From Polaribacter sp. Z022 (GTDB lineage: Bacteria; Bacteroidota; Bacteroidia; Flavobacteriales; Flavobacteriaceae), in assembly GCF_023555495.1 (NCBI RefSeq), contig NZ_JALCZO010000001.1, forward strand, positions 1 through 64,000: a DNA stretch of 64,000 nucleotides, written 5' to 3'. A program made the translations under genes and the position numbers. This document shows, piece after piece, positions 17,968 through 30,829 of this stretch (position 1 is the stretch's first letter; each line of letters opens with the position of its first letter). Under the pieces are notes generated by a model. That model worked only from the letters and a program-made list of their open reading frames with translations, had not been told where the DNA came from and did no database searches.

Positions 17968-18147
17968 TTATAAAATTCCTGATAAAGTTGTGGTAATTGC
18001 AACAATTATCCAAATTATAGTTACCAACCAATATGCATTAGGTTCGTATTTTCTATAAATAGGTCTAAATGTCCAAGTTACTCCATAATACATGTCATAC
18101 AATACCCAAATTAACAAACCAACTCCTATATAAAACCAAATATTCAT
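17968..18147 (-). CDS. Small two-helix membrane protein (59 aa)
   Basis: ATG at 18147, TAA at 17968. The protein starts MNIWFYIGVGLLIWVLYDMY, continues with a short Arg/Lys/Tyr-rich loop (RPIYRKYEP) and ends with a second helix (NAYWLVTIIWIIVAITTT). Two clean hydrophobic helices, a typical charged turn, and a position 12 bp after the radical SAM stop and directly before a terminator support a real gene. It is likely the last gene of the operon starting at the FNR-like promoter at 19935-19980. Function unknown. Confidence 0.7.
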   Translation of the reverse strand: MNIWFYIGVGLLIWVLYDMYYGVTWTFRPIYRKYEPNAYWLVTIIWIIVAITTTLSGIL

Positions 18148-18159
18148 AATTATTTTTTT

Positions 18160-19371
18160 TTAACTAAACATAAATTTTACTTTATCCGAAAAACTTGCAT
18201 TTTTATACCAAAACCACATTAATCCTTCTTCTAAATCTTGTGGAGACATTAATAAAGGTTGATAAACTGCATTGCTTCCCTCATATTTAGACCAATCTTT
18301 TGTTAATATTCTTCCTTCTGTTTCTAAACGATTAAATGTGTCAGATCCAGGAAATGGTATTACCAAATGAGGATAAACTTTATCTGCATTTATATCTTTT
18401 ACAAAATTTAATGTTTCTTCAAAAATTGAAGTATCATGTGCATCAAAACCAAACAAAAAATCACCAACAACTTCAATATTGTATTTCTTAATAATTTTTA
18501 CATATTCTTTTATTTTATTTGGTTTTACAAACGACTTACCTTGATCTTTTAATGCTTTTTCACTTGGTGTTTCTATACCGAACAAAAGTGCTTTAACTCC
18601 TGCTTTTTCTGCAGCTTCCAATAAACGTTCATCTCTTGCAATCATAATAGTTGTTTCTCCAAAAAAATTCATTTTTAGTGGTGCTATTGCCTCAAATAAT
18701 GCTATTGCATATTCTTTATCTTGCGTTAAATTATCCGAGTGTAATTCTACCCACTCTACACCAATTTCCTTCAAATGCTTTAACTCGCTTACTATATTTT
18801 CAATTGGTCGTAATTGAAATTTTTTAAAAAATTTGTGAACTAAACAAAAATCACATTTAAACGGACAACCTCTAGAAACTACAACAGACCAAGTATAATT
18901 ATAATGTTTTGGATGAATATAATTAGTTGGATAAGGCTTTAAATCTTTAAGATTAAAAACTGTATCTCTTTTATAGCTTTTTTTAAGAACTCCTTTTTTA
19001 AAGTCTTCTAAAAGTTGCTCCCATATACCTTCGATTTCACCAATTAAAATAGTATCTGCATGTTTACTAGCTTCTTCTTGCATAAAATAAGTGTGTAACC
19101 CCCCTAACACTATTGTTTTTCCCTTCTCAGAAAATTTATCTGCAATTTCATATGCTCGAAATGCATCTGGTGTAGACATAAAAACAGCTATAATATCTGC
19201 ATCAGAATTAAAATCTGTTTTCATACCAATAGTTTCATCACACATTTCAATTTCTACATTTTTTGGTGTTGTAGCTGCTGCAGAAAAAATATTTTGTGGT
19301 GGACCACCAGTTTCTGCTTTATACTTTGAATATTCACTTCCAGCAGAAGCTTTAATTAAATAGACTTTCAT
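18160..19371 (-). CDS. B12-binding-type radical SAM protein
   Basis: 403 residues. The first ~140 residues have the Rossmann-like B12-binding domain layout (DADIIAVFMSTPDAFRAYEI ... IVLGGLHTYFMQEEA ... DTILIGEIEGIW). The radical SAM [4Fe-4S] motif C-x3-C-x2-C is in SRGCPFKCDFCLVH near 168-176, followed by the half-barrel (EWVELHSDNLTQD, GVKALLFGIETPSEKALKDQ, VVGDFLFGFDAHD). Relatives include methylases and cyclases acting on unreactive carbons of lipids, hopanoids and natural products; the substrate here cannot be read from sequence. It is 31 bp behind the periplasmic gene at 19403 and under the same FNR-like promoter. Confidence 0.88.
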   Translation of the reverse strand: MKVYLIKASAGSEYSKYKAETGGPPQNIFSAAATTPKNVEIEMCDETIGMKTDFNSDADIIAVFMSTPDAFRAYEIADKFSEKGKTIVLGGLHTYFMQEEASKHADTILIGEIEGIWEQLLEDFKKGVLKKSYKRDTVFNLKDLKPYPTNYIHPKHYNYTWSVVVSRGCPFKCDFCLVHKFFKKFQLRPIENIVSELKHLKEIGVEWVELHSDNLTQDKEYAIALFEAIAPLKMNFFGETTIMIARDERLLEAAEKAGVKALLFGIETPSEKALKDQGKSFVKPNKIKEYVKIIKKYNIEVVGDFLFGFDAHDTSIFEETLNFVKDINADKVYPHLVIPFPGSDTFNRLETEGRILTKDWSKYEGSNAVYQPLLMSPQDLEEGLMWFWYKNASFSDKVKFMFS

Positions 19372-19402
19372 TGTTTTTATATTTTAAAATGACTATTAAA
19401 AT

Positions 19403-19864
19403 TTATCCTTTTACTAATGGATGATTATAAGATAATTTAAAATCTCTTGCTCTTTCTATGAAATGGTCTATTTGATTAAAACGTAAAAATTTTTTTGCTG
19501 AAATTACTTTCATAATTTTTCTAAAATATTTCTTTTGTAAACGTATCTTTTGTTTATCGTATTTTAATATATTTTTTAAAAAAACTGTAGCTTCTTTTTC
19601 ATTCATTTTTGTATAATCATGTAAAAACATATTTATTTCTTTATTAAGAATCTTTTCTTTTTTATTAAGGTATTCATCTAATAAAGGCCAAAAATAGGTA
19701 GCTTCAATTTTTGTAAACTCCATATTATTACTAACAATTACTTTATATTCATTATCTGCTATCTCTATAGCTTTAAGAATATTATCTTGAATGTTTTGTC
19801 CTTTAGTTGTTAAGTTAGACAATAAACACAATGTTACTATTAATGTTATTCTTAAAATTTTCAT
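19403..19864 (-). CDS. Secreted helical protein of unknown function
   Basis: 153 residues, signal peptide MKILRITLIVTLCLLSNLTT-KGQN. The mature part is predicted mostly helical and highly charged (EIADNEYKVIVSNNMEFTKI, KYDKQKIRLQKKYFRKIMKV, FLRFNQIDHFIERARDFKLS), reminiscent of Spy/CpxP-like periplasmic proteins but without LTxxQ repeats. First gene of the operon 19864 to 17968; the FNR-like operator is 107 bp upstream of the ATG. Confidence 0.72.
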   Translation of the reverse strand: MKILRITLIVTLCLLSNLTTKGQNIQDNILKAIEIADNEYKVIVSNNMEFTKIEATYFWPLLDEYLNKKEKILNKEINMFLHDYTKMNEKEATVFLKNILKYDKQKIRLQKKYFRKIMKVISAKKFLRFNQIDHFIERARDFKLSYNHPLVKG

Positions 19865-19934
19865 TCTTCTATTTTTAAAGATTAATTAAAGTAGAATTAT
19901 TTTTGGCCAATAAATATTCTATTCATTTATACCA

Positions 19935-19980
19935 CAAATTTCAAGAGTTTTTTTATATTTTCTTTTGATGTAAGTCAAAA
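19935..19980 (-). promoter_or_regulatory. FNR-like operator plus -7 element (site A)
   Basis: Operator TTTTGATGTAAGTCAAAA at 19963-19980 (core TTGAT-GTAA-GTCAA, centre 19971.5). On the minus strand GAAATTTG (19942-19935), one mismatch from TAnnTTTG, ends exactly 36.5 bp downstream of the centre. This is the spacing of a class II CRP/FNR-activated promoter and is identical to the sites at 24253, 26000 and 26408. Drives 19403-19864 and 18160-19371. Confidence 0.75.
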
Positions 19981-19999
19981 TAAAAAGTTAGAAAGAAAA

Positions 20000-21070
20000 T
20001 TATTTAGAATATTCTACCTCTACCAACTGTGTTAAAGGAATACTCTGACAACTTAAAATATATCCTTTCTCTACCTCAGATTCATCTAAAGAAAGGTTAT
20101 TTTTCATATGAACTTTACCTTGTTTTAGTTTACAAACACATGTAGAACAAACTCCACCTTCACATGAAAAAGGAGGGTTTAAACCTTTATCAATTAAAGT
20201 TCTTAATATTGTTTTTCCTTCTGGAACAGTAAGTTCTATTTGAGTATTGTTAATTTTTGCAATTAGTTTTGCATTTACTACTCCTTTTATATTAGAACCT
20301 TTAATGGTACCACCAAAACTTTCAGTAAATATTCTTGAATCTGGAACATCTATATTTTTAAGAGCTCTTTTGGTATTAGAAATCATAGATCCAGGACCAC
20401 AAATGTAATATTCTGCATTTTGAGCATAAGGTGGATATTCATTAATAAACCATTTTACCATACTAGAATCTATTCTTCCTTTTTTATAATTGTAACTACT
20501 AGAAGTTTTCCACAAATCGCTCCATGCATTTATTGGTCTACTTAAAGTATGTATAAGAATTAACCTGTCTTTAAAAGATTGCTTCAGTTCTTCTAGTTCT
20601 TTTTGAAACATAATTGATTCTTGATTTCTGTTTCCAAAAATTATATATACATAACTTCTTTCTTCAGTTAAAAGCACAGTTTTTAAAATGGATAAAATTG
20701 GTGTAATTCCACTTCCGGCAGCAAACAAATAATATGTTTTATAGTTTTCTTTTTTTATATCAGCAAAAAAACGTCCATCTGGAGGTAAAACTTCAACTAC
20801 ATCTCCAGCTTTAAGGTTATCATTAATATGGTTAGAAACCAATCCGTTTTTTACACGTTTTACTCCAATTTGTAAAGGTTCTTCTAAAACCGGAGAACTA
20901 CATAATGAATACGAACGACGTACTTGTTGTCCTTTCAGATTGAATTGTAACGTAAGAAATTGCCCTGGTTTGTAATTAAAAGCATCATACAATTCATAAG
21001 AAACATCAAAAGCTACTGAAACAGCATCTTTAGTTTCTTTTTTTACTTCTAAAACTTTTAAGGTATACAT
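20000..21070 (-). CDS. FAD/NAD(P)H oxidoreductase with plant-type [2Fe-2S] ferredoxin domain
   Basis: 356 residues. N-terminal FAD domain with RRSYSLCSSP, NAD domain with AAGSGITPILSIL and YICGPGSMI, and C-terminal ferredoxin with cysteines C303, C308, C311 and C341, exactly the C-x4-C-x2-C-x29-C pattern. This is the PaaE/Hmp-like reductase architecture that feeds electrons from NAD(P)H to an oxygenase. The Rieske oxygenase is two genes upstream in the same tight operon, so I infer it is that enzyme's reductase, and perhaps that of the diiron hydroxylase as well. Confidence 0.93.
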   Translation of the reverse strand: MYTLKVLEVKKETKDAVSVAFDVSYELYDAFNYKPGQFLTLQFNLKGQQVRRSYSLCSSPVLEEPLQIGVKRVKNGLVSNHINDNLKAGDVVEVLPPDGRFFADIKKENYKTYYLFAAGSGITPILSILKTVLLTEERSYVYIIFGNRNQESIMFQKELEELKQSFKDRLILIHTLSRPINAWSDLWKTSSSYNYKKGRIDSSMVKWFINEYPPYAQNAEYYICGPGSMISNTKRALKNIDVPDSRIFTESFGGTIKGSNIKGVVNAKLIAKINNTQIELTVPEGKTILRTLIDKGLNPPFSCEGGVCSTCVCKLKQGKVHMKNNLSLDESEVEKGYILSCQSIPLTQLVEVEYSK

Positions 21071-21078
21071 CTTACTTA

Positions 21079-21645
21079 TTATTTTAACTTGTAAATTTTC
21101 TTTGTCAAAATTTGAGTTGGAAAGCTATCAATATAATCTCCTTCTACTTTTATTCTATCACCTACTTTTAAAGAAATATAATTATCTCCTAAGTTAGGAA
21201 TACTCACTATCATATTATAAGCCTTATTATCTTTATCTCTAAGATGAATAGTTTCTCCGTCTTTTTCTCCAATTACTTTTGTTACTGTTAGTTCAGGTAA
21301 CTTTTTAAAAGTAGCTCTTTCTATTACTTTTATTTTTTTAGCAAAAATCTGTACAGGTTTATTCTCTGTATACTTTCCTGTAATTTTTACTTTATCTCCA
21401 ACATATAAACGCACATAATTTTCTTCTAAATTAGGAATACTTATTGTGCAAAAATATAAACTACCAGCTACATCTTTTAATGTTGCTGTGTAACCATCTT
21501 TTCCTTTGTAAATATCTATAACTGTTAATGTAGCATAGTCAGATAGCATATTTTTAATTTCTGAATTATTGTTATCTTTTTTGTCTTTGACCGAATTACA
21601 AGCTGTAATTGCTACTACTAATATTAATATAAACAAGTTCTTCAT
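21079..21645 (-). CDS. Lipoprotein with two tandem OB-like repeats
   Basis: 188 residues from the ATG at 21645 (MKNLFILILVVAITACNS, lipobox ITAC); the longer frame to 21696 overlaps the Rieske gene and only adds pre-signal residues. The mature part is an internal duplication: residues about 39-110 (LTVIDIYKGKDGYTATLKD ... SIPNLEENYVRLYVGDKVKI) and 114-185 (LTVTKVIGEKDGETIHLRD ... SIPNLGDNYISLKVGDRIKV). Each half has the strand order of a small OB-fold. It lies between oxygenase and reductase genes (gaps 28 and 8 bp), so it may be an envelope partner of the pathway. Role unknown. Confidence 0.8.
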   Translation of the reverse strand: MKNLFILILVVAITACNSVKDKKDNNNSEIKNMLSDYATLTVIDIYKGKDGYTATLKDVAGSLYFCTISIPNLEENYVRLYVGDKVKITGKYTENKPVQIFAKKIKVIERATFKKLPELTVTKVIGEKDGETIHLRDKDNKAYNMIVSIPNLGDNYISLKVGDRIKVEGDYIDSFPTQILTKKIYKLK

Positions 21646-21673
21646 ATCTTTTGTTTTATAATTAAGTACATGC

Positions 21674-22879
21674 TTATTGCTCCTTAAAAGCCCCATTTTT
21701 TTTCATCCATTTTTTTACTTCTTCTTGAAATCTTTGAATAGCATATTCTCCTTTTTTTGCTTGAGCACCTACTTTAAAATATGGAGATTGTAATGACTTT
21801 TGCTGTTGTTCACAAGCATAAATATCTTCTAACATAAAATCTCCACTTGCCATTGGGTCATTTTTATCTCCTTCGTATTTTCCTGTATTTCCTAATTTAG
21901 TCCACACATTACTTAAAGTTGATTTAGAGTACTGCTTTGTATATTCCCACTCACTAACATTCATTGTTTTAGAACGTATGGTTACTAAAGTTTTATCTGG
22001 TGCTAAGGGCAATACATGAAAAGTATTCCATGAACCTTCGCTTTCTGTAATTCCAATATTTGGAAATAACCAAGGAACATATGCTTTTATATTATCTTCT
22101 GGCATTTTATCTATTAAAGGAAAAGGAGAAGCTTTTTTTACTTCTTTTTGATAAATATCTACTAAAGGTTCCTGAAACCAATAATGAGGTCCAACCCAAC
22201 CAAATTCTGCTTTTTCATGATTGTACATATTGAGTGTACCTTCGTGTAAATGTGCTAAATGGTAATGGTCAATATAGTTTTCTACAACAATTTTCCAGTT
22301 GGCTTTTATTTCTTTACTATAAAAAGGTTCTCCTTTTTTAGTTTGATATTCTATCAATTCCTCTGGTATATGAGGCCCTAAGTATTGTTTAACGTTACCA
22401 AAATACTCCATAATATTTGGTGCATTTTTTTCTGGATGTACAAATAACATACCCTTAAAAATATCAACAGAAGCTTCATGTAAATTTAAATCACATTTAT
22501 GCAATTCTCCTTTTAGGTTTGGAAATTCTTCTTCTCTTTTAGGAACACTAATTAGTTTACCTTCTAAATTATAAGTCCAATCATGGTAAGGACAAGTAAT
22601 TGCTTTTTGTGCTTTACCTACTGCTCTTAATAATTGTGTGCCTCTATGTCTACAAATATTATGAAATGCGCGTAATCTATTATCACGTCCTTTTACAATA
22701 AATATGTTATTTAAACCAGCTTGTACACTAATATAATCTCCAGGTTTACTTACATCTTCTACCAAACCTGCAAATTGCCATGTTGTACTAAATAAATATT
22801 TTAATTCGGTATCAAACCATTCTTTTGAAGTGTATGCTTCTACAGGTAGAGCATGCATCATTTGATTATTTTTAAGCAT
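21674..22879 (-). CDS. Rieske non-heme iron oxygenase, alpha subunit type
   Basis: 401 residues. The Rieske [2Fe-2S] ligands are C76-x-H78 and C96-x2-H99 (CRHRG ... CPYHDW). The catalytic iron site has D204-x2-H207-x4-H212 (NYIDHYHLAHLH), where D204 is the bridging residue for electron transfer between subunits. The overall layout is that of ring-hydroxylating and choline/carnitine-type monooxygenases, which insert O2 oxygen or demethylate. No beta subunit is present, so an alpha3-type enzyme is likely. The substrate is not predictable from sequence. Alternative starts at Met7 or Met8 are possible. Six bp after the desaturase gene. Confidence 0.94.
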   Translation of the reverse strand: MLKNNQMMHALPVEAYTSKEWFDTELKYLFSTTWQFAGLVEDVSKPGDYISVQAGLNNIFIVKGRDNRLRAFHNICRHRGTQLLRAVGKAQKAITCPYHDWTYNLEGKLISVPKREEEFPNLKGELHKCDLNLHEASVDIFKGMLFVHPEKNAPNIMEYFGNVKQYLGPHIPEELIEYQTKKGEPFYSKEIKANWKIVVENYIDHYHLAHLHEGTLNMYNHEKAEFGWVGPHYWFQEPLVDIYQKEVKKASPFPLIDKMPEDNIKAYVPWLFPNIGITESEGSWNTFHVLPLAPDKTLVTIRSKTMNVSEWEYTKQYSKSTLSNVWTKLGNTGKYEGDKNDPMASGDFMLEDIYACEQQQKSLQSPYFKVGAQAKKGEYAIQRFQEEVKKWMKKNGAFKEQ

Positions 22880-22885
22880 ATTTTT

Positions 22886-23839
22886 TTATTTAGAAGGTGT
22901 CCAATCTGGTGGTTTAATTAAAACTTTAAATTTATTTACAACACCTTTAGTTTGCAATAGTTTGCTTCCTAATCTAGATAATCCATGAAAAAATACTTTT
23001 ATAGGATTAACACTGTTTAAAGGCTCTGAAATTCCATATCTAACTTTTTCAACTTCTGGCTCAAAAGTGCCTAAAAGTTTATCCCAAATAATTAAAATTC
23101 CTGCATAGTTTTTATCCCAATATTGTCTATTAGAACCATGATGTACCCTATGATGAGAAGGAGTATTAAATATTTTTTCAATTGGTTTTGGTAATTTCCC
23201 AATTATTTCTGTGTGTAATAGTGTTTGAAATACTTGTACAAATATTTCTGCTGCTAATATTAATATTGGGTCAAATCCTAGCATAACAATTGGTAATGAG
23301 AAAAGAATTGGAAACACTGCATCTAATGGTCCAAAACGATAAGCTACAGACATATTAAAGTGTTCTGAACTGTGGTGTACTGTATGTGTTGCCCATCCTA
23401 AACCAATTCTATGCATAGTTCTATGATCCCAATAATAAGCAAAATCTGCTAATAAAATTGCTCCTATAACTGTAACTATATTTAAAGGTAAATGCGGTAA
23501 ACTAAAATTATAATGAAGCCAATAATACACTTTAACAATTGCAAATAATGCTAAAATATATTCTATAACTATAAACGCTCCAAAAGTAATTACATTAGCT
23601 ATAGAATCTAAAATTACATCTTTTCCTAATTTTTTAATAACTCCATATCTAATAATTTCTATAAAAAAAAATGGAATAATTATATATATTAAACTTAAAT
23701 CATTTACAATATAAAACCAATATTCTACAGATTCTGGATATAAATCTGTTAGATTTAAAAAATTTGCAACTCCATGTACACTTCCTGTTATAACAGCTAT
23801 TACTAATATGCTATATATTAAAAGTCTAGTATTACTCAT
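22886..23839 (-). CDS. Sterol desaturase / fatty acid hydroxylase family membrane diiron enzyme
   Basis: 317 residues with about five to six hydrophobic segments. All histidine boxes are intact: H139-x3-H143 (DHRTMH), H152-x2-H155-H156 (HTVHH) and H230-x2-H233-H234 (HRVHH). The family uses O2 and electrons to hydroxylate or desaturate lipids, sterols or carotenoids in the membrane. Position 5 bp after the DUF2147 gene and 6 bp before the Rieske gene suggests that both oxygenases act in one pathway and share electron supply. Confidence 0.93.
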   Translation of the reverse strand: MSNTRLLIYSILVIAVITGSVHGVANFLNLTDLYPESVEYWFYIVNDLSLIYIIIPFFFIEIIRYGVIKKLGKDVILDSIANVITFGAFIVIEYILALFAIVKVYYWLHYNFSLPHLPLNIVTVIGAILLADFAYYWDHRTMHRIGLGWATHTVHHSSEHFNMSVAYRFGPLDAVFPILFSLPIVMLGFDPILILAAEIFVQVFQTLLHTEIIGKLPKPIEKIFNTPSHHRVHHGSNRQYWDKNYAGILIIWDKLLGTFEPEVEKVRYGISEPLNSVNPIKVFFHGLSRLGSKLLQTKGVVNKFKVLIKPPDWTPSK

Positions 23840-23844
23840 AAGTA

Positions 23845-24231
23845 TTATTTTAAAATATTTCTAGTCCAAGTTTCTTTATAAGGTTTACCATTTAAAGTCA
23901 TTAATACTTCTAACTTATTATGATCTTTTTTAGTAAAGATTACTTTATAAAAACTTCCATCTGGTAAATACATTTTACCATTAATATATTTACCTTCTTT
24001 ATATTCTACATCAGATAAAAAATAATCTTCTTTTTTATCTTTTCCTTTGTACTCTGTAATTCCATCATTATAATAATGTATTTTACCTATGTACTTTTTT
24101 TGGTACTTTACGATTTCATATTTAGCTTGGTATATATCTGTTTTCACATTCCAAACACCAACAATTACATCTTTTTGAGCACATGCACTAAAAGATATAA
24201 TCATTATTAAAATTGCTATTTTTTTCTTCAT
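23845..24231 (-). CDS. DUF2147 family envelope protein (paralog 1)
   Basis: 128 residues from the ATG at 24231, chosen because it starts a signal peptide (MKKKIAILIMIISFSACAQK, lipobox-like FSAC); the frame extends to 24351 but that part overlaps the operator and the upstream gene. DUF2147 signature: IVGVWNV near the start, YVGKI/YIGKI-HYYND in the middle and a final KETWTRN. It is a small beta-barrel-like fold of unknown function. Paralogous to 26498-26890. First gene of the oxygenase operon, 58 bp after FNR-like site B. Confidence 0.82.
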   Translation of the reverse strand: MKKKIAILIMIISFSACAQKDVIVGVWNVKTDIYQAKYEIVKYQKKYIGKIHYYNDGITEYKGKDKKEDYFLSDVEYKEGKYINGKMYLPDGSFYKVIFTKKDHNKLEVLMTLNGKPYKETWTRNILK

Positions 24232-24252
24232 GTCTTTCTTATATTTATAATG

Positions 24253-24298
24253 CAAATATCTAGTTAAATTTTTAAGTGTTTTTTGATTTAAGTCAAAT
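24253..24298 (-). promoter_or_regulatory. FNR-like operator plus -7 element (site B)
   Basis: Operator core TTGATTTAAGTCAA at 24283-24296 (centre 24289.5) and, on the minus strand, GATATTTG at 24260-24253, one mismatch from TAnnTTTG, ending 36.5 bp from the centre. The predicted start of transcription is about 24248, giving a leader of about 17 nt for the operon DUF2147 - desaturase - Rieske - OB lipoprotein - reductase. The operator covers the stop codon of the upstream membrane gene. Confidence 0.78.
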
Positions 24299-24521
24299 AA
24301 CTCCACATAGAATACAATGCTAAAAAAGACCAAATTAAAACCATAAACCAATATAGTTTGGGTGTTTCTATTTTAGAAACTGCTTCTACAAAATGAATTT
24401 CTCCACTTTTAATTACATGAATTAACCCAAGTAAAATAAAAAGAGCCCAAAACCAACTCCAGTTTAAATAAATAGCAATTGCCATTAAAATTAGAGCTAA
24501 TAAAGTTTTCCATTTTTTCAT
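24288..24521 (-). CDS. Small three-helix membrane protein (paralog 1)
   Basis: 77 residues with hydrophobic segments LLALILMAIAIYLNWSWFW, FILLGLIHVI and YWFMVLIWSFLALYSMW. Clearly paralogous to 26102-26368: both share W-[KR]-T-x-x-A-L-I-L-M-x-I-A-x-x-L-N-W-x-W, an x-K-S-G turn followed by an F-[VI]-E-[AP] stretch, and a final helix with [AM]-[LI]-Y-S. One bp separates it from the ABC membrane gene. Function unknown; recurring twice next to DUF2147 genes suggests they work together. Confidence 0.78.
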   Translation of the reverse strand: MKKWKTLLALILMAIAIYLNWSWFWALFILLGLIHVIKSGEIHFVEAVSKIETPKLYWFMVLIWSFLALYSMWSYLT

Positions 24522-24522
24522 T

Positions 24523-25377
24523 TTAAATTGATTTTAATCTAGAACTAATTTCTTGCAACCTAATTACCTGTTGAAAAACAATTGGCAGCATAAAAATACC
24601 ATTCGAAAATTCTAATATATAAGTAAGTGTTGCAAATATATCTCCAGCTGTTACGTTTAATGAGCTAGCTGAAATATATAATGTAAAAGTTGCTAAAAGG
24701 AATAATAATATTTCTATAATTCCAAAATTTAAAGTTTCAAGATCAGAAAGTTTAACCAACCATTTAGAAATATTTTTAAAATGACTAATTACTCCTATTT
24801 GATCTTTAGCTTCTAAAACAGTAATTCTATTTTCTAATTCATCATTTAACCCAATATTAAAATTATAAATTTTAGTATTACTTAACAAATAAATTATAAC
24901 AATTAAAACAATTGTAATTAGGCATGCTATAAAAATATACCAATTAAATAAGGTTAACATTATTAATGCACCAACAACACCAATTAAAGATGTAAAGGCC
25001 TGAGCAACATCGTGTTCAAAAAAATCTATCAATTCTTTTATTAAAGAACTTCTTGCTGCAATAGAAGATACTGAAATATTTTTTTGATGTTGAATATTTG
25101 TTATTTCTGAGGCAACTTTAGAATAAATAAATGTATAAATTCTTGTATCATAATAACGTCTTGCAATACCAACTAAAAAACCAAAACTGTAAAGTATACT
25201 AAAGAGCCAAAGACCGTCATTTTTCTTATTCAATAAATCATTAATTGCTATTCCTAAAACAAGAGGTTGTAATACTTTAGATACATTTTCGAAAATAAGA
25301 AGTATAAATGTAATTGATATTTTCAATTTAAATCTTTTAAAAATAGATTTTATAGCATATTGATTTCCTAATTCCAT
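24523..25377 (-). CDS. ABC exporter-type six-helix transmembrane protein without ATPase domain
   Basis: 284 residues with the six-helix layout of type I ABC exporters (PF13748-like stand-alone form), including the long cytoplasmic helices (IYSKVASEITNIQHQKNISV, IGLNDELENRITVLEAKDQI). The frame ends after the last membrane helix (RLQEISSRLKSI), where a Walker-type ATPase would normally begin; none is encoded next to it. It may be a degenerate or repurposed exporter half. No FNR-like promoter directly upstream; likely read through from site C past the hairpin at 25401. Confidence 0.8.
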   Translation of the reverse strand: MELGNQYAIKSIFKRFKLKISITFILLIFENVSKVLQPLVLGIAINDLLNKKNDGLWLFSILYSFGFLVGIARRYYDTRIYTFIYSKVASEITNIQHQKNISVSSIAARSSLIKELIDFFEHDVAQAFTSLIGVVGALIMLTLFNWYIFIACLITIVLIVIIYLLSNTKIYNFNIGLNDELENRITVLEAKDQIGVISHFKNISKWLVKLSDLETLNFGIIEILLFLLATFTLYISASSLNVTAGDIFATLTYILEFSNGIFMLPIVFQQVIRLQEISSRLKSI

Positions 25378-25400
25378 ATTAATTATATTTTTTATGATAA

Positions 25401-25428
25401 AAGGCTAGAGCCCTCCAACTCTAGCCTT
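25401..25428 (-). terminator. Hairpin terminator or attenuator
   Basis: AAGGCTAGAG (25401-25410) pairs with CTCTAGCCTT (25419-25428) around an 8-nt loop; on the minus strand it is followed by only a short U run (TTTTAT). Downstream of the barrel gene and 23 bp before the ABC membrane gene, so probably partial termination. Confidence 0.7.
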
Positions 25429-25461
25429 AAATTCATAGCAATTATTTATAGAATATCACTT

Positions 25462-25971
25462 TTACAAACTAAATTCTAAACCTATCCCAAAAGTTTTCCA
25501 TGTATTAGATTTTACTTTCAAACCTGTAAAAGAAGCGTTTATAGCTAGTAATTTAGATAATTTCCATCCAACTCTAGGTTTATACTGAAATCCATTTTTA
25601 ATTCCTTTACCAATACCAACTGTATATCCTAAATCTAATCCTAAATAAATATCATTTGTTGTATTATACCTAAATGCTCCCATAATAGGAATGTATTTTG
25701 CATTTCTATATGTAAAATGCTTTAAAGTATTATCTTCTGTATAAGAAACTTTTTTTCCTCCAAAATAAGAAACACCTGTAGAAGCTCCTATATTAAACTT
25801 ACCAGATTTTATAAATAAATACGTTGTTTCTAAACCAATTCCTACTTTTGAAACATCTTCTGTTTCTCCTAAAGGTATAGCTCCAAAAACCCCTACATTA
25901 ATAATTTTTTCTTGTGAAAAACCTATTAAACTAGTTAATGATAATACAAGTATTAGTGATACTTTTTTCAT
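25462..25971 (-). CDS. Small outer-membrane beta-barrel protein
   Basis: 169 residues, signal peptide MKKVSLILVLSLTSLIGFSQ. Repeated amphipathic strands (INVGVFGAIPLGETEDVSKV, FNIGASTGVSYFGG, IYLGLDLGYTVGIGKGIKNG) and a C-terminal strand ending in Leu (FGIGLEFSL) fit an 8-strand OmpX/OprF-like barrel. It has two FNR-like sites upstream (centres 26036.5 and 26084.5), the proximal one correctly spaced to a perfect -7 element, so it should be strongly regulated with the rest of the cluster. Confidence 0.78.
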   Translation of the reverse strand: MKKVSLILVLSLTSLIGFSQEKIINVGVFGAIPLGETEDVSKVGIGLETTYLFIKSGKFNIGASTGVSYFGGKKVSYTEDNTLKHFTYRNAKYIPIMGAFRYNTTNDIYLGLDLGYTVGIGKGIKNGFQYKPRVGWKLSKLLAINASFTGLKVKSNTWKTFGIGLEFSL

Positions 25972-25999
25972 GATATTATGTTTTAAATTATTTATAGTA

Positions 26000-26046
26000 C
26001 AAATTTAAAACTGATTAAAAAGAATTGTTTTGACTTATGTCAAAAC
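26000..26046 (-). promoter_or_regulatory. FNR-like operator plus perfect -7 element (site C)
   Basis: GTTTTGAC-TTAT-GTCAAAAC at 26027-26046 is a perfect inverted repeat (centre 26036.5). On the minus strand TAAATTTG (26007-26000) matches TAnnTTTG completely and ends 36.5 bp from the operator centre. Predicted transcription start near 25995 and leader of about 24 nt to the ATG at 25971. Confidence 0.82.
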
Positions 26047-26075
26047 TGAAAAAAAGAGATGTTTAATTGATGCTT

Positions 26076-26093
26076 TTTTGACATAAATCAAAA
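26076..26093 (-). promoter_or_regulatory. Secondary FNR-like operator (site D)
   Basis: TTTTGAC-ATAA-ATCAAAA, centre 26084.5, 48 bp upstream of site C. No -7 element lies at 36.5 bp on either side, so I infer an auxiliary upstream site for the 25971 promoter, as in tandem CRP/FNR promoters. Confidence 0.6.
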
Positions 26094-26101
26094 CAACCTA
26101 T

Positions 26102-26368
26102 TTAAAAGTAAAAGAGTTCTGAAATTGTTAGAAATAGTAGATAAAAAGAATAAATAGCCATTAAACCCCAAGAAATTATAATCAGCCAAAAAACAAAAGG
26201 GTTTTTATTTTTTGATATTGGTTCTATAAAAAAAGTAGTTCCAGACTTTAAATCTGGAATAACCCAAATTAAAAGAAAGAACCCCCAAATCCATTCCCAG
26301 TTTAAAAGAAGTGCAATATACATTAAGATAAGCGCAATAATTGTACGCCATTTTAAAGATGTTTTCAT
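26102..26368 (-). CDS. Small three-helix membrane protein (paralog 2)
   Basis: 88 residues: TIIALILMYIALLLNWEWIW, a short middle helix, KSGTTFFIEPISK turn, then FWLIIISWGLMAIYSFYLLF. Paralog of 24288-24521 with about ten more residues at the C-terminus. Divergent from the second DUF2147 gene, with FNR-like site E placed 36.5 bp from a one-mismatch -7 element in this direction too. Function unknown. Confidence 0.75.
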   Translation of the reverse strand: MKTSLKWRTIIALILMYIALLLNWEWIWGFFLLIWVIPDLKSGTTFFIEPISKNKNPFVFWLIIISWGLMAIYSFYLLFLTISELFYF

Positions 26369-26407
26369 TATTTTTTTTAGCTATTAAGGTACATTTTTTT
26401 TAAGATT

Positions 26408-26481
26408 CAAAACAATTAATTCTATAAATAATGCTTTTTGATATAGGTCAAAAAATAACATAATAATTCCGTCAATATTTG
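26408..26481. promoter_or_regulatory. Bidirectional FNR-like operator with two -7 elements (site E)
   Basis: Operator core TTGAT-ATAG-GTCAA at 26438-26451 (centre 26444.5). Plus direction: AATATTTG at 26474-26481 ends 36.5 bp away and precedes the ATG at 26498. Minus direction: TTGTTTTG at 26415-26408 also ends exactly 36.5 bp away and precedes the ATG at 26368. Each -7 box has one mismatch to TAnnTTTG. A single dimer could activate both units. Confidence 0.72.
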
Positions 26482-26497
26482 CAATAAATATTTAATT

Positions 26498-26890
26498 ATG
26501 AAAAAATTATTTTTAATTATTGTTTGCTTATTTTTTATGGTTTACTCAAAAAAAAATCATGAAATTATAGGGTTATGGAATGTAAAAAGCAATCACTACA
26601 AAGCCACCTATAAAATTGAATTTCAAGAAACTAAACTAGTTGGAAAAGTTATTTATTACAATGACGACACTACTGTTTTACATGAAACTGGCACAAAAAA
26701 AGATCTTTTTTTATTTAACCTTAAAAAAGAAAACAACATCTATGTAGATGCTGTTTCTGGAGCAACAAATACAGAAACTTATGCAACTACAATTAAAGAA
26801 AAACATAAAGATACTTTAGAAGTAACAACTTTTATTATGAAAAAACCTTTAATAGAAACTTGGATAAGAAACACTGAAAAACAACAATAA
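26498..26890 (+). CDS. DUF2147 family envelope protein (paralog 2)
   Basis: 130 residues with a signal peptide (MKKLFLIIVCLFFMVYS). DUF2147 hallmarks match paralog 1: IIGLWNVKSNHYKATYKIEF, LVGKVIYYND and the terminal IETWIRN. First gene of the six-gene operon 26498 to 30171, driven by site E with a leader of about 12 nt. Function unknown. Confidence 0.8.
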   Translation: MKKLFLIIVCLFFMVYSKKNHEIIGLWNVKSNHYKATYKIEFQETKLVGKVIYYNDDTTVLHETGTKKDLFLFNLKKENNIYVDAVSGATNTETYATTIKEKHKDTLEVTTFIMKKPLIETWIRNTEKQQ

Positions 26891-26892
26891 AC

Positions 26893-28023
26893 ATGAAAAA
26901 ACATTTTAGCCTTTTAGCATTAAGTATGTTATTATTTTTTAGTTGTGAAAACAACTTAAGAGACATTTCTGGTATAAAAAACCCAGTAGAAACTGTAACA
27001 GTAGAGCCAGTAGATATAAATATTGATGGTTTTGATTTTCTTGAAAAAATGCAAGGTCATTGGGTAGGTACAAATATGGTAATTACAGATGAATATCCTT
27101 GGTTTGCTTGGGATTATAGAGCCATCTCAAAATCTCACATACAAGGCATACATGAAGGTGGTTCTATGGGGAACTTATTTACTTCATTTTTTGTAACCAA
27201 CTACAAAAACAAGAGAACAATTATGGCAAGAAATGGTGGTCTTTTAAACGGTATTTATAGAACAAGTTATTTTGTATTAGACAAAGTAGAAACCTTGGCT
27301 GTTAATGATAAAAAATATCGTTTTGTAGATGCTATTGGTAACAAAGATATTATGCATTTCGAAATACGTTTTAAAGACAATGAAATATTCTTTAATGTTT
27401 ACACAAGTGGATTGGGGGCAAGAATTCCTTCTAGACATATGACTTTTAAAGGAAAAAAAGAACATTTAAGTTTAGCTCAAACTGCTGCTAACGAAACAAA
27501 TTTTCCTAAAAATGAAGTTGAAATTGATTTTGCAAATGGATTTAGAGAAGATTATTTATATGTAGAAACTGGTGCAGATAAAGCTAAATCTGCAACATTT
27601 TTAGCACAATCTACATCAAATGATGTTTATTCTATGGCTATAGAATCTGGAGATCCTTATACAATAACAGATCATCCTAAACTAGGTTCAATTCAAATTG
27701 ATATTAGTAGAAATAACGACATTTTAGATTCAAATTTATTTGTTTATCTATCTAAAGAACCATTAACAAATACAGATGGTCAATTAACATCAAATACAGC
27801 AGCTTTTAATTCAATACTACATTTCCCAACTTTAACAGAAAAAGAAAACAGTTTTTTGTTTACCTATATACATCCTGGATCTTATTATTTAACAATAATT
27901 GCTGATAAAAATAACGATTTAACAATTAGTAATGGAGATATAACAAATATAAGTACTGCTTTCACCTTAAATAATAAAGAACATAAAACATTAAGCGTAA
28001 ATAATATCAATTATCAAAATTAA
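26893..28023 (+). CDS. Lipocalin-like lipoprotein with extra C-terminal beta domain
   Basis: 376 residues, lipobox LFFSC (Cys 17). Residues about 48-195 look like a lipocalin/THAP4-like barrel: EKMQGHWVGTNM at the start, then strands such as SHIQGIHEGGSMGNLFTSFF and ARNGGLLNGIYRTSYFVLDK. The C-terminal half (about 220-375) contains two more beta-rich parts (SIQIDISRNNDILDSNLFVY, LTISNGDITNISTAFTLN). I infer binding of a hydrophobic ligand in the envelope. Two bp after the DUF2147 stop, so translationally linked. No close family recognised. Confidence 0.7.
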   Translation: MKKHFSLLALSMLLFFSCENNLRDISGIKNPVETVTVEPVDINIDGFDFLEKMQGHWVGTNMVITDEYPWFAWDYRAISKSHIQGIHEGGSMGNLFTSFFVTNYKNKRTIMARNGGLLNGIYRTSYFVLDKVETLAVNDKKYRFVDAIGNKDIMHFEIRFKDNEIFFNVYTSGLGARIPSRHMTFKGKKEHLSLAQTAANETNFPKNEVEIDFANGFREDYLYVETGADKAKSATFLAQSTSNDVYSMAIESGDPYTITDHPKLGSIQIDISRNNDILDSNLFVYLSKEPLTNTDGQLTSNTAAFNSILHFPTLTEKENSFLFTYIHPGSYYLTIIADKNNDLTISNGDITNISTAFTLNNKEHKTLSVNNINYQN

Positions 28024-28034
28024 TTCACAAAAAA

Positions 28035-28394
28035 ATGAAAAAACACTTAACTATTTTTCTTTTCAGCTTTAGTATGTTTTTAATTGCTAGTTGCACAAAA
28101 GCTTTTATTCCAGATATTGAAGACACTACAAATCCAATAACAAAAGTTATAAAATATAATACTGATGTAAAACAAATTATGACAAACAATTGTATTACTT
28201 GTCATGGAGGACCATCACCAAGTGATGGTTTAGATTTAACAACTTTTGCAAATGTTAAAAATGCAGCTTTAAATAGAAATTTAATAGAAAGGATGAATGA
28301 TGCTACTGCACCAATGCCTCAATCTGGTTTATTGCTTTTATCAACAAGAAAAATTATAGATAAATGGAAAGCTGATGGCTTTCTAGAAAACTAA
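28035..28394 (+). CDS. c-type cytochrome lipoprotein
   Basis: 119 residues, lipobox LIASC (Cys 19). One haem-binding motif CITCH in MTNNCITCHGGPSPSDGLDL and a Met-containing APMPQSGLLL downstream that can supply the sixth ligand; the C-terminal IIDKWKADGF is the usual last helix of Bacteroidota one-haem 'cytochrome c domain' proteins. It should carry electrons at the envelope and may connect the cluster's redox steps to the respiratory chain. Confidence 0.9.
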   Translation: MKKHLTIFLFSFSMFLIASCTKAFIPDIEDTTNPITKVIKYNTDVKQIMTNNCITCHGGPSPSDGLDLTTFANVKNAALNRNLIERMNDATAPMPQSGLLLLSTRKIIDKWKADGFLEN

Positions 28395-28399
28395 AAAAA

Positions 28400-28936
28400 A
28401 TGAAAAAAACACTTTTAATTTTAATGTTATTGTGCTTGCAATCAATTGTTGCGCAAAAATATATTACACGTTCTGGTATTACGTCTTTTAAAGCATCTGT
28501 TGCAACATTTGAACCAATAGAAGCAGTTCATAAAAGTTCTTCTGCAATTATAAACAGTAAAGGAGATGTTGCTGCCCTTTTATTAGTAAAAGGTTTCGGT
28601 TTTAAAGTAGCTTTAATGCAAGAACATTTTAATGAAAACTATATGGATTCTGATAGTTATCCTAAAGCTACCTTTAAAGGAATGCTGAAAGATTTTTCAT
28701 TAGAAAAACTAAAAACGAACCAAAAATTTTCTTTAGAAGGCACATTGTCTATAAAAGGAAAAACTAAAGAAATTAAAACAGAAGCCGTCGTTTTAAAACA
28801 ACAAGGAAAATTAATTTTTAAAACGTCTTTTTTGGTAACTCCTCAAGATTTTGATATAAAAATTCCTGGAATTGTTCGTAAAAAAATTGCAAAACAAATA
28901 GAAATTTTAATTGATTATGAACTTGAAAAGAAGTAA
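28400..28936 (+). CDS. YceI family (polyisoprenoid-binding) periplasmic protein
   Basis: 178 residues, signal peptide MKKTLLILMLLCLQSIVAQ. YceI layout: SGITSFKASVATFEPIEAVH at the start, ALLLVKGFGFKVALMQEHFN, the conserved Y-P-K-A-T-F-K-G (about 91-98), LEGTLSIKGKTKEI, and the end QDFDIKIPGIVRKKIAKQIE. Members bind long isoprenoids or quinones in a lipocalin-like barrel. Here it supports a lipid or isoprenoid substrate for the cluster. Six bp after the cytochrome gene; overlaps the next gene by 20 bp. Confidence 0.9.
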   Translation: MKKTLLILMLLCLQSIVAQKYITRSGITSFKASVATFEPIEAVHKSSSAIINSKGDVAALLLVKGFGFKVALMQEHFNENYMDSDSYPKATFKGMLKDFSLEKLKTNQKFSLEGTLSIKGKTKEIKTEAVVLKQQGKLIFKTSFLVTPQDFDIKIPGIVRKKIAKQIEILIDYELEKK

Positions 28937-29300
28937 AAATATTTTAATCACTATTTCTTTAATTAGTTTGATAGGTTTTGGTGGATATTCTTACATCTAC
29001 AAATCTCACAAAAAGATTGAATTTAAAAATGCTGATTTTGAAGGGAAAACAAATGATTTCTTTAAAATAACAAAAAAAGATTCAAATGTCTGGCTAGATA
29101 AAACAATTGTTTTAGAAGGAATAATTACTAAAATTGATAAAAAAGGAATTGTATTAGACAATTCTATTTATTGTCAATTTAACAATTTAAAAAATATAGA
29201 ATTATCAAAAAACAGTCTAATAAAAATAAAAGGGAATATGATTGGGTTTGATGATTTACTTGAAGAAATAAAACTAAATCAATGCATAATACTAAAATAA
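28917..29300 (+). CDS. Membrane-anchored OB-fold (tRNA_anti-like) protein
   Basis: 127 residues from the ATG at 28917 inside the YceI gene; a TTG at 28911 is the only nearby alternative. One N-terminal membrane helix (ILITISLISLIGFGGYSYIY), then a periplasmic OB-like domain (WLDKTIVLEGIITKIDKKGI ... SLIKIKGNMIGFDDLLEEI). The same type of domain is duplicated in the lipoprotein 21079-21645, which links both arms of the cluster. Confidence 0.72.
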   Translation: MNLKRSKNILITISLISLIGFGGYSYIYKSHKKIEFKNADFEGKTNDFFKITKKDSNVWLDKTIVLEGIITKIDKKGIVLDNSIYCQFNNLKNIELSKNSLIKIKGNMIGFDDLLEEIKLNQCIILK

Positions 29301-29310
29301 ATATTATAAA

Positions 29311-30171
29311 ATGAAAAAATCTATTATCATATTAATCACTCTAATTTGCAGTTTAAGTAGTTCTGCTCAAGATGATCTTTTAAATGAATTAAATAATGAA
29401 ATAAAAATAGAAAAATACCAATTACCTGCTTTTAAAGCAATGAAAATTGGAAACCTTCAATCTACAAAAATTGCAGAAAAAGGAGATTTATACATGATTG
29501 TTTCTCATAGATTTGGAACCTTAAAAAACGGAATAGAAACTTTTTTTGGATTTGATGATGCCAATACTAAAATGCAATTATTGTATAGTTTTATGAACGG
29601 TGTACAAGTTAGTTTAAGTAGAGAATCTTTAAACAGAACTTATGCAAGTGCATTAAAAGTTCGTTTATTTAAACAAACAAATCTATTTCCTGTAAATATG
29701 GTTTTGTATGGTACAGCAAATATAAATACGTTAATAAAAGAAGCTCAATATCCTGAATTAAAATTTTCAGATAAAATGAGCTATGCAACACAATTACTTG
29801 TTTCTAGAAGGGTTTCTAATAATTTGTCCTTACTTATTGCACCTTCTTTTGTAAGACAAAATCTACAAGATATTAGAGTAACAAAAGGCTTAAATCACAA
29901 CCAATTTATAATGGGTTTTGGTGGTAGAATAAAAGTTAGTAAACGCATGAGCATCAATGCAGATTATGCATATAATTTTAATAGAGAAAAGAAGTCTTTA
30001 TATCAAAATCCATTAACAATAGGGTTAGATATAGAAACTGGAGGACACGTTTTTCAATTATTATTTTCTAATGCACAATCTACAAATGAACCTGGTTTTT
30101 TAAGCAACGCAGAAGGAAATTGGGCAAATGGAAATGTATTTTTTGGATTTAATGTAGTTAGAGTTTTTTAG
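29311..30171 (+). CDS. DUF5777 family outer-membrane beta-barrel protein
   Basis: 286 residues, signal peptide MKKSIIILITLICSLSSSAQ. Recognisable family features: AFKAMKIGNLQSTKIAEKGD near the start, IVSHRFGTLKNGIETFFGFD, repeated barrel strands, and GHVFQLLFSNAQSTNEPGFL near the end. The family is Bacteroidota-specific and I recall it near YceI and cytochrome genes, but its function is not established. Last gene of the operon, terminated at 30187-30221. Confidence 0.85.
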   Translation: MKKSIIILITLICSLSSSAQDDLLNELNNEIKIEKYQLPAFKAMKIGNLQSTKIAEKGDLYMIVSHRFGTLKNGIETFFGFDDANTKMQLLYSFMNGVQVSLSRESLNRTYASALKVRLFKQTNLFPVNMVLYGTANINTLIKEAQYPELKFSDKMSYATQLLVSRRVSNNLSLLIAPSFVRQNLQDIRVTKGLNHNQFIMGFGGRIKVSKRMSINADYAYNFNREKKSLYQNPLTIGLDIETGGHVFQLLFSNAQSTNEPGFLSNAEGNWANGNVFFGFNVVRVF

Positions 30172-30186
30172 TGTTTGGTTGGTTAT

Positions 30187-30221
30187 AAAAGAGGTGTTTT
30201 GTTAAATCAAAACCCTCTTTT
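30187..30221. terminator. Bidirectional terminator between the DUF5777 gene and the regulator
   Basis: AAAAGAGGTGTTTTG (30187-30201) pairs with CAAAACCCTCTTTT (30208-30221) with one bulged T and a 6-nt loop, between stop codons at 30171 (plus) and 30223 (minus). Confidence 0.8.
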
Positions 30222-30222
30222 A

Positions 30223-30783
30223 TTATTTCCCTCTAATTCTACTTAGTGTTTCTTGGCTTATTCCTAACATTGAAGCAATATGTCCTAAATTTGCAATTTG
30301 AATAATATTAGGGTAAACAGAAAGTAATAAATTATATTTTTCTTTAGCAGATAAAAAATAATACCCTTTATAAAAATCATCTATTATAGCCAATTCTTGC
30401 TCCATAATAATTCTTCCATACCTATTAAGTTCTGGATATTTATCAAATAAATCTTGCCAGTCATCATAACTTAAAGACATTAAAACAGACTTTTCTGTTA
30501 ACTCTATATATTCTACAGATGGTTTTCTTAAATAATAACTATGCCAAGAAGTAAAAATAGTTTCATTAGGATAAACCCAATGTGTAACATCTTTTCCTTT
30601 TTGATAAAAAAAAGCTCTAGCAGTTCCTTCAGATAAGAAATACAATCTACTACAAACCTTTCCTTCTTTAACTATTTGATGGCCCTTAGCAACTTCTTCA
30701 ACTTTAACTAAATTACATATATCTTTCTCTGCATCAGCAGTTAAGTCTACATAACTCTTTATATTATCTATAAATCTTTCCAT
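30223..30783 (-). CDS. CRP/FNR-family transcriptional regulator
   Basis: 186 residues from the ATG at 30783 (MERFIDNIKSYVDLTADAEK); the frame runs on to 31014 but only as antisense of dusB. Residues ~20-110 form the cyclic-nucleotide-binding-like domain (GHQIVKEGKVCSRLYFLSEG) and the C-terminus is a short winged HTH ending in ISQETLSRIRGK. E178, S181 and R182 reproduce the E-x-x-S-R signature with which FNR contacts TTGAT half-sites. The N-terminal cysteine cluster of FNR is absent, so oxygen sensing by [4Fe-4S] is unlikely; the ligand is unknown. It is the obvious candidate regulator for sites A-E. No such site lies in front of itself. Confidence 0.92.
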   Translation of the reverse strand: MERFIDNIKSYVDLTADAEKDICNLVKVEEVAKGHQIVKEGKVCSRLYFLSEGTARAFFYQKGKDVTHWVYPNETIFTSWHSYYLRKPSVEYIELTEKSVLMSLSYDDWQDLFDKYPELNRYGRIIMEQELAIIDDFYKGYYFLSAKEKYNLLLSVYPNIIQIANLGHIASMLGISQETLSRIRGK

Positions 30784-30817
30784 ATAAAATATCTTACTGC
30801 AAAATAAATAAAAAAAG

Positions 30818-30825
30818 TAACTTTG
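30818..30825 (+). promoter_or_regulatory. -7 element for dusB
   Basis: TAACTTTG matches TAnnTTTG fully and ends only 4 bp before the ATG at 30830. With a start of transcription about 5 nt after the element, the dusB mRNA would have almost no leader. Confidence 0.5.
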
Positions 30826-30829
30826 CCAC

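Follow-up and report, generated by a model that had tools for sequence, protein, structure and literature searches.

FNR boxes, class II activation and the -7 element of Bacteroidota promoters are already known, and in CAP a change of Glu181 is reported to alter the preference at the G of the half-site. FNR-type boxes are given for two NO-responsive regulators, TTGACnnnnGTCAA for one group of HcpR and TTGATnnnnATCAA for DNR (PMC1274295). CrpR1 of Riemerella anatipestifer exists in forms of 179-197 residues, and the text on it contains 'palindrom' and 'binding site' 0 times (PMC13277301). Short Crp/Fnr paralogues often occur several per Flavobacteriaceae genome, and our searches of open-licence PMC papers brought up no operator for them, nor any such operators or code for short Bacteroidota Crp/Fnr proteins in general. 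Here, we analyse the first 64,000 nucleotides of contig NZ_JALCZO010000001.1 of Polaribacter sp. Z022 (assembly GCF_023555495.1, forward strand; this whole stretch is termed the window), in which 18 clustered genes (17968-30171), forming four or five transcription units, are followed on the opposite strand by the gene of a 186-aa Crp/Fnr-type protein (30223-30783). We are highly confident, from comparative evidence, that this protein is a short CRP/FNR-type activator that binds TTGAY-nTAn-RTCAA in class II position at four, perhaps five, units of these 18 genes. The sites, their spacing and their co-conservation with the regulator are seen directly in the sequences, as is the fact that helix residue and operator base change together among homologues.

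Results

Spaced palindromes in the cluster

Five TTGAY-nTAn-RTCAA palindromes, starting at 19965, 24283, 26030, 26078 and 26438, lie in the cluster, all with nTAn as spacer and with TTGAC as one half or both, and two further palindromes of the window, at 1398 and 51037, lie outside it. Shuffled windows are expected to contain 0.62 palindromes, with a maximum of 3 in 100 shuffles. The octamers GAAATTTG, GATATTTG, TAAATTTG and AATATTTG, all of the form nAnnTTTG, end exactly 36.5 bp from the centres of four palindromes, and so does a poorer octamer in the opposite direction, TTGTTTTG, which is without the otherwise conserved A; the palindrome at 26078 lacks a TTTG at 36.5 bp in both directions. 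At the composition of the cluster (27% GC), the chance of nAnnTTTG at one fixed distance in at least 4 of 10 site-directions is 7.6e-9, or 1.2e-7 when 16 distances are allowed. The predicted operators and promoter elements are as follows (L-numbers denote loci and G-numbers genomes compared):

19965-19978, minus strand (read toward lower coordinates): operator of unit 1, exact TTGACTTACATCAA, conserved in L132
19935-19942, minus strand: -7 element GAAATTTG, 36.5 bp from the centre of the unit 1 operator
24283-24296, minus strand: operator of unit 2, overlapping the stop codon of ORF 24288-24521
24253-24260, minus strand: -7 element GATATTTG of unit 2
26030-26043, minus strand: operator of unit 3
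26000-26007, minus strand: -7 element TAAATTTG of unit 3
26078-26091, minus strand: palindrome placed in tandem 48 bp upstream of the unit 3 operator; L131 and L132 have the same 48 bp pair, which in the window stands before 25971
26438-26451, plus strand: operator of unit 4, perhaps common to unit 5 on the minus strand
26474-26481, plus strand: -7 element AATATTTG of unit 4
26408-26415, minus strand: weak opposite -7 element TTGTTTTG of unit 5, not found in single-site relatives

The original prediction, which was made from the window sequence, had named five palindromes with a free four-base spacer in non-coding gaps and four -7 elements exactly 36.5 bp from their centres. All five palindromes and all four elements are where it had put them, while the spacer is nTAn rather than free and the palindrome at 24283 reaches into the 77-aa ORF.

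In the complete genome (3.49 Mb, 48 contigs), TTGANNTANNTCAA-N26-TTTG has 5 exact matches, all within the cluster, so that the motif with its spacing is not scattered at random over the genome. The bare palindrome was rejected as the mark of a genome-wide FNR regulon, showing no enrichment (40 sites versus 37 for the reversed pattern). The other TA-centred palindromes of the genome (contig C10: 1398, 108245, 117247 and 243839) were taken as chance occurrences because they have no TTTG at 36.5 bp and all lie in long ORFs.

Conservation of sites and spacing

Scanning of named genomes with the regulator alignment gave 26 orthologous loci from Polaribacter, Tenacibaculum, Aquimarina, Flavobacterium, Leptobacterium, Sediminicola, Aureivirga and other Flavobacteriaceae. 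Two further alignments comprised the window with 16 of 18 hits and the window with 15 of 24. All 26 loci contain the palindrome with TTTG at 36.5 bp, compared with 5 containing the palindrome and 0 the spacing in the reversed control. The sole match in L145 is several genes off, before an unrelated gene, and thus 25 of the 26 have a site at cluster genes. When the window is included, a directed site stands in front of 46 of 52 cluster-gene transcription units, the six without one being four paralogues or second gene sets (L137, L142, L152 and L153) and two cluster units (L134 and L154). The left part of L142 holds a second YceI/DUF5777/cytochrome-like gene set without a site. In genome G033 the cluster genes are spread over separate contigs and the sites are retained. 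The system of the Aquimarina loci consists of the regulator, the site, one or two small genes and an FA_hydroxylase gene, to which Leptobacterium adds the Rieske pair.

Among the 70 distinct palindromes of the window and the 26 loci, TTTG occurs in 61 site-directions at 36.5 bp, followed by 20 at 30.5 and 8 at 43.5. The sequence logo, which omits 14 intragenic sites and loci L101-L103, shows a conserved A in nAnnTTTG although selection demanded only TTTG, and no conserved -33 box. One fixed spacing before many different genes, together with the missing -33 box, fits activation better than repression. That the regulator is instead a repressor blocking promoters from this same position is very unlikely in our view: some CRP/FNR proteins do repress, and geometry alone is no proof of activation, but repressor sites usually vary in position.

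Co-occurrence of the sites with the adjacent regulator

Across 299 genomes of the family, the exact pattern has 127 occurrences, spread over 81 genomes, compared with 10 in the reversed control, and 52 homologues of the regulator (E ≤ 1e-25) are found in 47 genomes. The pattern is present in 39 of the 47 genomes with a homologue versus 42 of the 252 others (p = 1.2e-18), and in a draw of genomes from the phylum, the TTGA pattern with nAnnTTTG was rarer outside the family (9/142 genomes versus 8/16 family genomes). A site lies at most 150 bp from 34 of the 52 homologous regulators, where chance would give 0.025 within 1.5 kb. When any spacer is allowed, a palindrome is found within 1.5 kb on either side of 42 regulators, 39 of which have TTTG at 36.5 bp.

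These data bear on the possibility that a global oxygen- or NO-sensing regulator of the FNR, DNR or HcpR type elsewhere in the genome, such as L017 beside a ccoI-like gene (L017, L022, L023 and L025 being other cNMP-domain proteins of this genome), acts on the cluster, the adjacent gene being a bystander. The palindrome is indeed an FNR box by consensus, comparable to the boxes quoted above for DNR and one HcpR group (PMC1274295). However, no exact spaced site exists in the genome outside the cluster, and the TTGA palindrome occurs in 0 of 30 loci of orthologues of the cysteine-bearing, FNR-like L017, whose helix reads E-S-A-I-R rather than E-x-x-S-R; on the count of these loci, L017 was ruled out as the cluster regulator. 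A Pfam scan of 19 proteins from the cluster and its flanks found no product of hcp, nor or nir genes and no NO or nitrite reductase. Some of the core targets belong to oxygen-dependent enzyme families: both FA_hydroxylase and Rieske enzymes consume oxygen, which speaks against an anaerobic programme. Control by such a global regulator is highly improbable.

A probable residue-to-base code

E-x-x-S-R, the motif of the recognition helix, is kept in 49 of the 52 homologues. The E is lost in L234, L237 and L238, none of which has a TTGA palindrome; L234 (Q, with the R lost too) has TTAA at the 36.5 bp spacing, and L237 (V) has a site one base off TTAAC-N4-GTTAA. Since both belong to the regulator's own clade, this suggests more than one residue change.

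A near-site beside the paralogue L022 led us to examine other half-sites. The clade of L022 carries V-x-x-S-R, and within the 1.5 kb search, the TTGA palindrome with spacing was found in 0 of its 30 loci. The clade is not siteless: TTAAC-N4-GTTAA with nAnnTTTG at 36.5 bp occurs in 17 of these 30 loci, compared with 0 in the reversed control and 0/30 in FNR-like loci. In the Polaribacter genome itself, TTAACATATGTTAA with TAAATTTG at 36.5 bp lies behind L022 (L157, positions 1475-1488, contig C21), matching a V-type operator. An unbiased count of 5-base half-sites gave TTAAC as the sole one among those listed for the L022 clade, and TTGAT and TTGAC lead for the regulator's clade.

The sample of the L022 clade consisted of the 30 hits that came as loci, 3 of which yielded no protein for helix reading, and 60 more that were fetched from the remaining hits. 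In the 60 extra loci, V proteins had TTAA in 14 of 29 cases, T proteins TTTA in 7 of 21 and I proteins TTAA in 1 of 9, and no other TTnA operator was found among V and T proteins; one E-x-x-S-R, two E-x-x-S-K and one V-x-x-C-R protein were all without an operator. The pairing of V with TTAA had been predicted beforehand, and that of T with TTTA was discovered in these same loci.

In the combined analysis, in which four ORFs overall were unreadable at the helix, a TTnA operator was found within 300 bp of 80 of 146 regulators not chosen by site, and its base fits the residue in 80/80: E with TTGA in 39, V with TTAA in 31, I (2) and Q (1) with TTAA, and T with TTTA in 7. The best of 100,000 shuffles of the residue-base pairing reached 53 of 80, and the reversed control gave a TTnA operator in 3/180. 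Among regulators chosen by TTGA, 26 E proteins had TTGA (one also TTCA), 4 had no operator, one S protein had TTGA and three were unreadable. Operators lay on the regulator's strand in 109 of 111 cases, 92 of them within 30 bp of the regulator ORF. When the spacing was not assumed, 36.5 bp was the top distance both with TTAAC in V loci, at a count of 32 against 2 for the runner-up, and with TTTAC in T loci, at 6 against 1. Across these homologues, the residue that opens the E-x-x-S-R motif thus predicts the operator: TTGA for E, TTAA for V (also I and Q) and TTTA for T.

The regulator protein

The regulator matches PF00027 with 29.2 bits (cut-off 27.5), and its fold matches include CRP and FNR chains. 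Its profile finds 3DN7 of Cytophaga hutchinsonii in the PDB at E 4e-29 over nearly the full length, and 3DN7 is also the top fold match. The structure model (mean pLDDT 84.6, with blocks of 69-83 over the last 60 residues) stops in the recognition helix 177-185, with the helix-turn-helix present and the wing not; likewise, the protein is not among the genome's 6 matches to the C-terminal winged helix-turn-helix HTH_Crp_2 (PF13545). It belongs to a short, 3DN7-like Bacteroidota Crp/Fnr clade, whose members have about 185-200 residues, end just after the recognition helix and are similar over the full length. The nearest relative among the named loci returned, at 76%, is from an uncultured Polaribacter (L131). 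The longest ORF (30223-31014, minus strand) extends 77 codons into the divergent dus gene, and the start at 30783 agrees with the homologues.

Of the features of FNR, the E-x-x-S-R helix is present, the box TTGAT-N4-ATCAA is present as TTGAY-nTAn-RTCAA, and cysteines for a [4Fe-4S] cluster are not conserved. No invariant cysteine exists across 8 aligned orthologues, which argues against an Fe-S sensor, and visual comparison of these 8 rows with the CRP motif does not make a phosphate-binding cassette evident. The label 'FNR-like' in the original prediction thus holds for DNA recognition and fails for the sensor and, given the oxygen-dependent families, for the targets. Its proposal that E178-x-x-S181-R182 is the signature for TTGAT gains from the joint change of residue and operator, and the motif is not unique: among the ten cNMP-domain proteins of the genome, L023 (PETLSR) and L025 (REVISR) also have E-x-x-S-R. 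We therefore rejected this motif alone as proof of the link between regulator and sites and made the link by adjacency and co-conservation. One system of sites, spacing and adjacent regulator, as first proposed, is upheld by comparative genomics, with 18 instead of about 16 genes.

Several observations weigh against assigning the sites to this regulator or against the extent of its control. Its own promoter region (30784-30829) has no site. No spaced site was found within 1.5 kb of 13 of the 52 homologues, six of which are cluster loci (the window included) with sites farther off; L111, L121 and L220 have palindromes but no TTTG; no palindrome was found within 1.5 kb on each side of L117, L234, L237 and L238, and L117 retains the E. 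For 66 of the 146 regulators, no TTnA operator was found within 300 bp. Because the sequences are related and not independent, the p-values overstate the case, and fewer residue changes have truly taken place than the counts suggest. The original prediction also had a second -7 element opposite the last palindrome. The octamer does end at 36.5 bp, but a promoter for unit 5 at 26408 is weak, because beside the DUF2147-like gene, where the window has one directed site, 10 of the 26 related loci carry two distinct ones 32-35 bp apart, and because in L131, L134 and L149, where a single site precedes the small membrane gene, no TTTG stands at 36.5 bp toward that gene.

The paralogue L023 is a most improbable candidate for the true regulator or for a protein sharing its sites, since its recognition residues (E-T-L-S-R helix) are identical to the regulator's but it lies next to its own site, which shares the 36.5 bp spacing and has a different centre, TTAATTTCAATCAA, and in minimal loci (L137, L142-L144, L147, L150, L152 and L156, from a search limited to loci that have the regulator) it is the adjacent regulator and not L023 that stands directly before the FA_hydroxylase operator. 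The site directly behind L023 (1968-2011, contig C21) combines the diverged TTAATTTCAATCAA with GTAATTTG at 36.5 bp and is perhaps its own operator.

Gene content and possible function of the cluster

The genes assigned to the regulator, and the regulator itself, are as follows:

17968-18147, minus strand: unit 1, 59-aa small membrane protein
18160-19371, minus strand: unit 1, radical SAM protein, BchE/HpnJ-like (above the Pfam cut-off, below NCBIfam cut-offs)
19403-19864, minus strand: unit 1, 153-aa exported protein
20000-21070, minus strand: unit 2, FAD/NAD/2Fe-2S reductase, PaaE/GbcB-like
21079-21696, minus strand: unit 2, lipoprotein
21674-22879, minus strand: unit 2, Rieske oxygenase
22886-23839, minus strand: unit 2, membrane FA_hydroxylase
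23845-24231, minus strand: unit 2, DUF2147-like exported protein (19.9 bits, below the cut-off of 27; start set at ATG 24231)
24288-24521, minus strand: unit 3, 77-aa small membrane protein
24523-25377, minus strand: unit 3, 284-aa ABC transmembrane domain protein (ABC_membrane_3 by Pfam, which reported no ATPase domain within it)
25462-25971, minus strand: unit 3, outer-membrane beta-barrel-like protein (below the Pfam cut-off)
26102-26368, minus strand: unit 5, 88-aa small membrane protein
26498-26890, plus strand: unit 4, DUF2147-like exported protein (19.7 bits, below the cut-off)
26893-28023, plus strand: unit 4, 376-aa lipoprotein without a Pfam match
28035-28394, plus strand: unit 4, cytochrome-c-like protein (below cut-offs)
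28400-28936, plus strand: unit 4, YceI domain protein
28911-29300, plus strand: unit 4, 129-aa tRNA_anti-like protein (below the cut-off)
29311-30171, plus strand: unit 4, DUF5777 beta-barrel protein
30223-30783, minus strand: regulator, short Crp/Fnr protein with E178-x-x-S181-R182

FA_hydroxylase is the commonest target beside the regulator, in 22 of the 26 related loci, and co-occurs with a Rieske oxygenase in 13, a PaaE/GbcB-like reductase in 10, and YceI and DUF5777 proteins in 18 each (each including one paralogue set, L142), among others. The only NCBIfam match of the hydroxylase is OlsE, at 67 bits versus a cut-off of 475, and it matched no PDB sequence at E up to 1. No NCBIfam model scored above its cut-off for ten cluster proteins among the families listed (25 of 29 for one protein). 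The best fold match of the 376-aa lipoprotein was a lyase (E 2.7e-4, TM about 0.2), followed by nitrobindin-like barrels at about 1e-3; all matches being weak, we claim no function for it. The three small membrane proteins (17968-18147, 24288-24521 and 26102-26368, all on the minus strand) are mutually similar by BLAST, at 40-44% to the 88-aa one. From its gene content, we tentatively suggest that the regulon may serve to oxidise and carry, on induction, a lipid of the envelope or another hydrophobic compound, a reading in which we place limited confidence. By tying several conserved envelope proteins of unknown role (DUF5777, DUF2147-like and the 376-aa lipoprotein) to FA_hydroxylase and the Rieske oxygenase, the regulon offers a first functional context for them.

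Other operons with the same operator type

Of the 77 TTGA matches that lay far from any listed regulator, 60 were fetched, the others being 12 in G033, G083, G135 and G259 and 5 in G147, G250, G021 and, one each, G001 and G100. The fetched matches were intergenic in 46 cases and inside ORFs in 14; the fetched stretch held a Crp/Fnr-like ORF for 34 of them, all intergenic, and within 20 bp for 27. Behind the operators of the 52 regulators, the first gene encodes an outer-membrane efflux protein in 11 loci (L112, L115, L116, L119, L120, L123, L125, L126, L129, L130 and L219), a small exported protein in 7 (with FA_hydroxylase next in L109, the one scanned), a membrane protein of 107-112 aa in 6 and one of 203-212 aa in 4, a DoxX-like protein (below the cut-off) in 2, what we take to be an NAD(P)H-quinone-reductase-like protein in 2, and other proteins in single cases. 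The L109 hydroxylase is 73% identical to that of the window, and their regulators only 39%.

Discussion

The regulator would bind TTGAY-nTAn-RTCAA as a dimer, E178 of its FNR-type recognition helix reading the G of TTGA. From a site whose centre precedes the final base of the -7 element by 36.5 bp (about -41.5), it would recruit RNA polymerase in the class II manner to promoters without a conserved -33 box. Through these precisely spaced sites, it probably switches on the neighbouring envelope and oxygenase genes, acting as an activator rather than a repressor, presumably in response to a small-molecule signal in the cNMP-like barrel. Its control probably extends to four units, perhaps five, with 18 genes and, by exact sites, to nothing else in the genome.

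More generally, we consider it likely, from the sequences compared, that short wingless Crp/Fnr proteins of Flavobacteriaceae are a major class of activators that act locally, on a single operon, and follow a readable DNA code. Each would abut its own class II operator TTnA-N6-TnAA at exactly 36.5 bp from the -7 element's end, with the base n set by one helix residue (G by E, A by V, I or Q, T by T), paralogues within one genome would thereby be insulated from one another, and the ligands would be new, neither a cyclic nucleotide nor oxygen. If so, targets (efflux, lipid hydroxylases, oxidoreductases) and operators could be predicted from the protein alone, and with operator, geometry and one-residue code readable from sequence, those of many unstudied regulators would become predictable.

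Among known proteins, 3DN7 is matched by the regulator profile over nearly its whole length; its solved chain in the fold library has 146 residues, and thus its DNA-binding end may be unresolved. CrpR1, likened here by residue length and not by sequence, is perhaps kin to the regulator's clade. HcpR and DNR share FNR-type boxes with this system, whereas the regulator belongs to another protein clade by length and sequence. With Escherichia coli FNR and its relatives (TTGATnnnnATCAA), it has in common the half-site TTGA, the E-x-x-S-R helix and the position expected for class II activation; it differs from FNR in having no invariant cysteine, a chain that ends in the recognition helix, a local rather than global regulon and the spacer nTAn. 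The natural E/V/T series resembles the effect of Glu181 changes in CAP, and the code would be the natural counterpart of the specificity mutants made in CRP. Compared with those substitutions, the series found here is a natural one across Bacteroidota paralogues, read on TTnA half-sites by comparison only.

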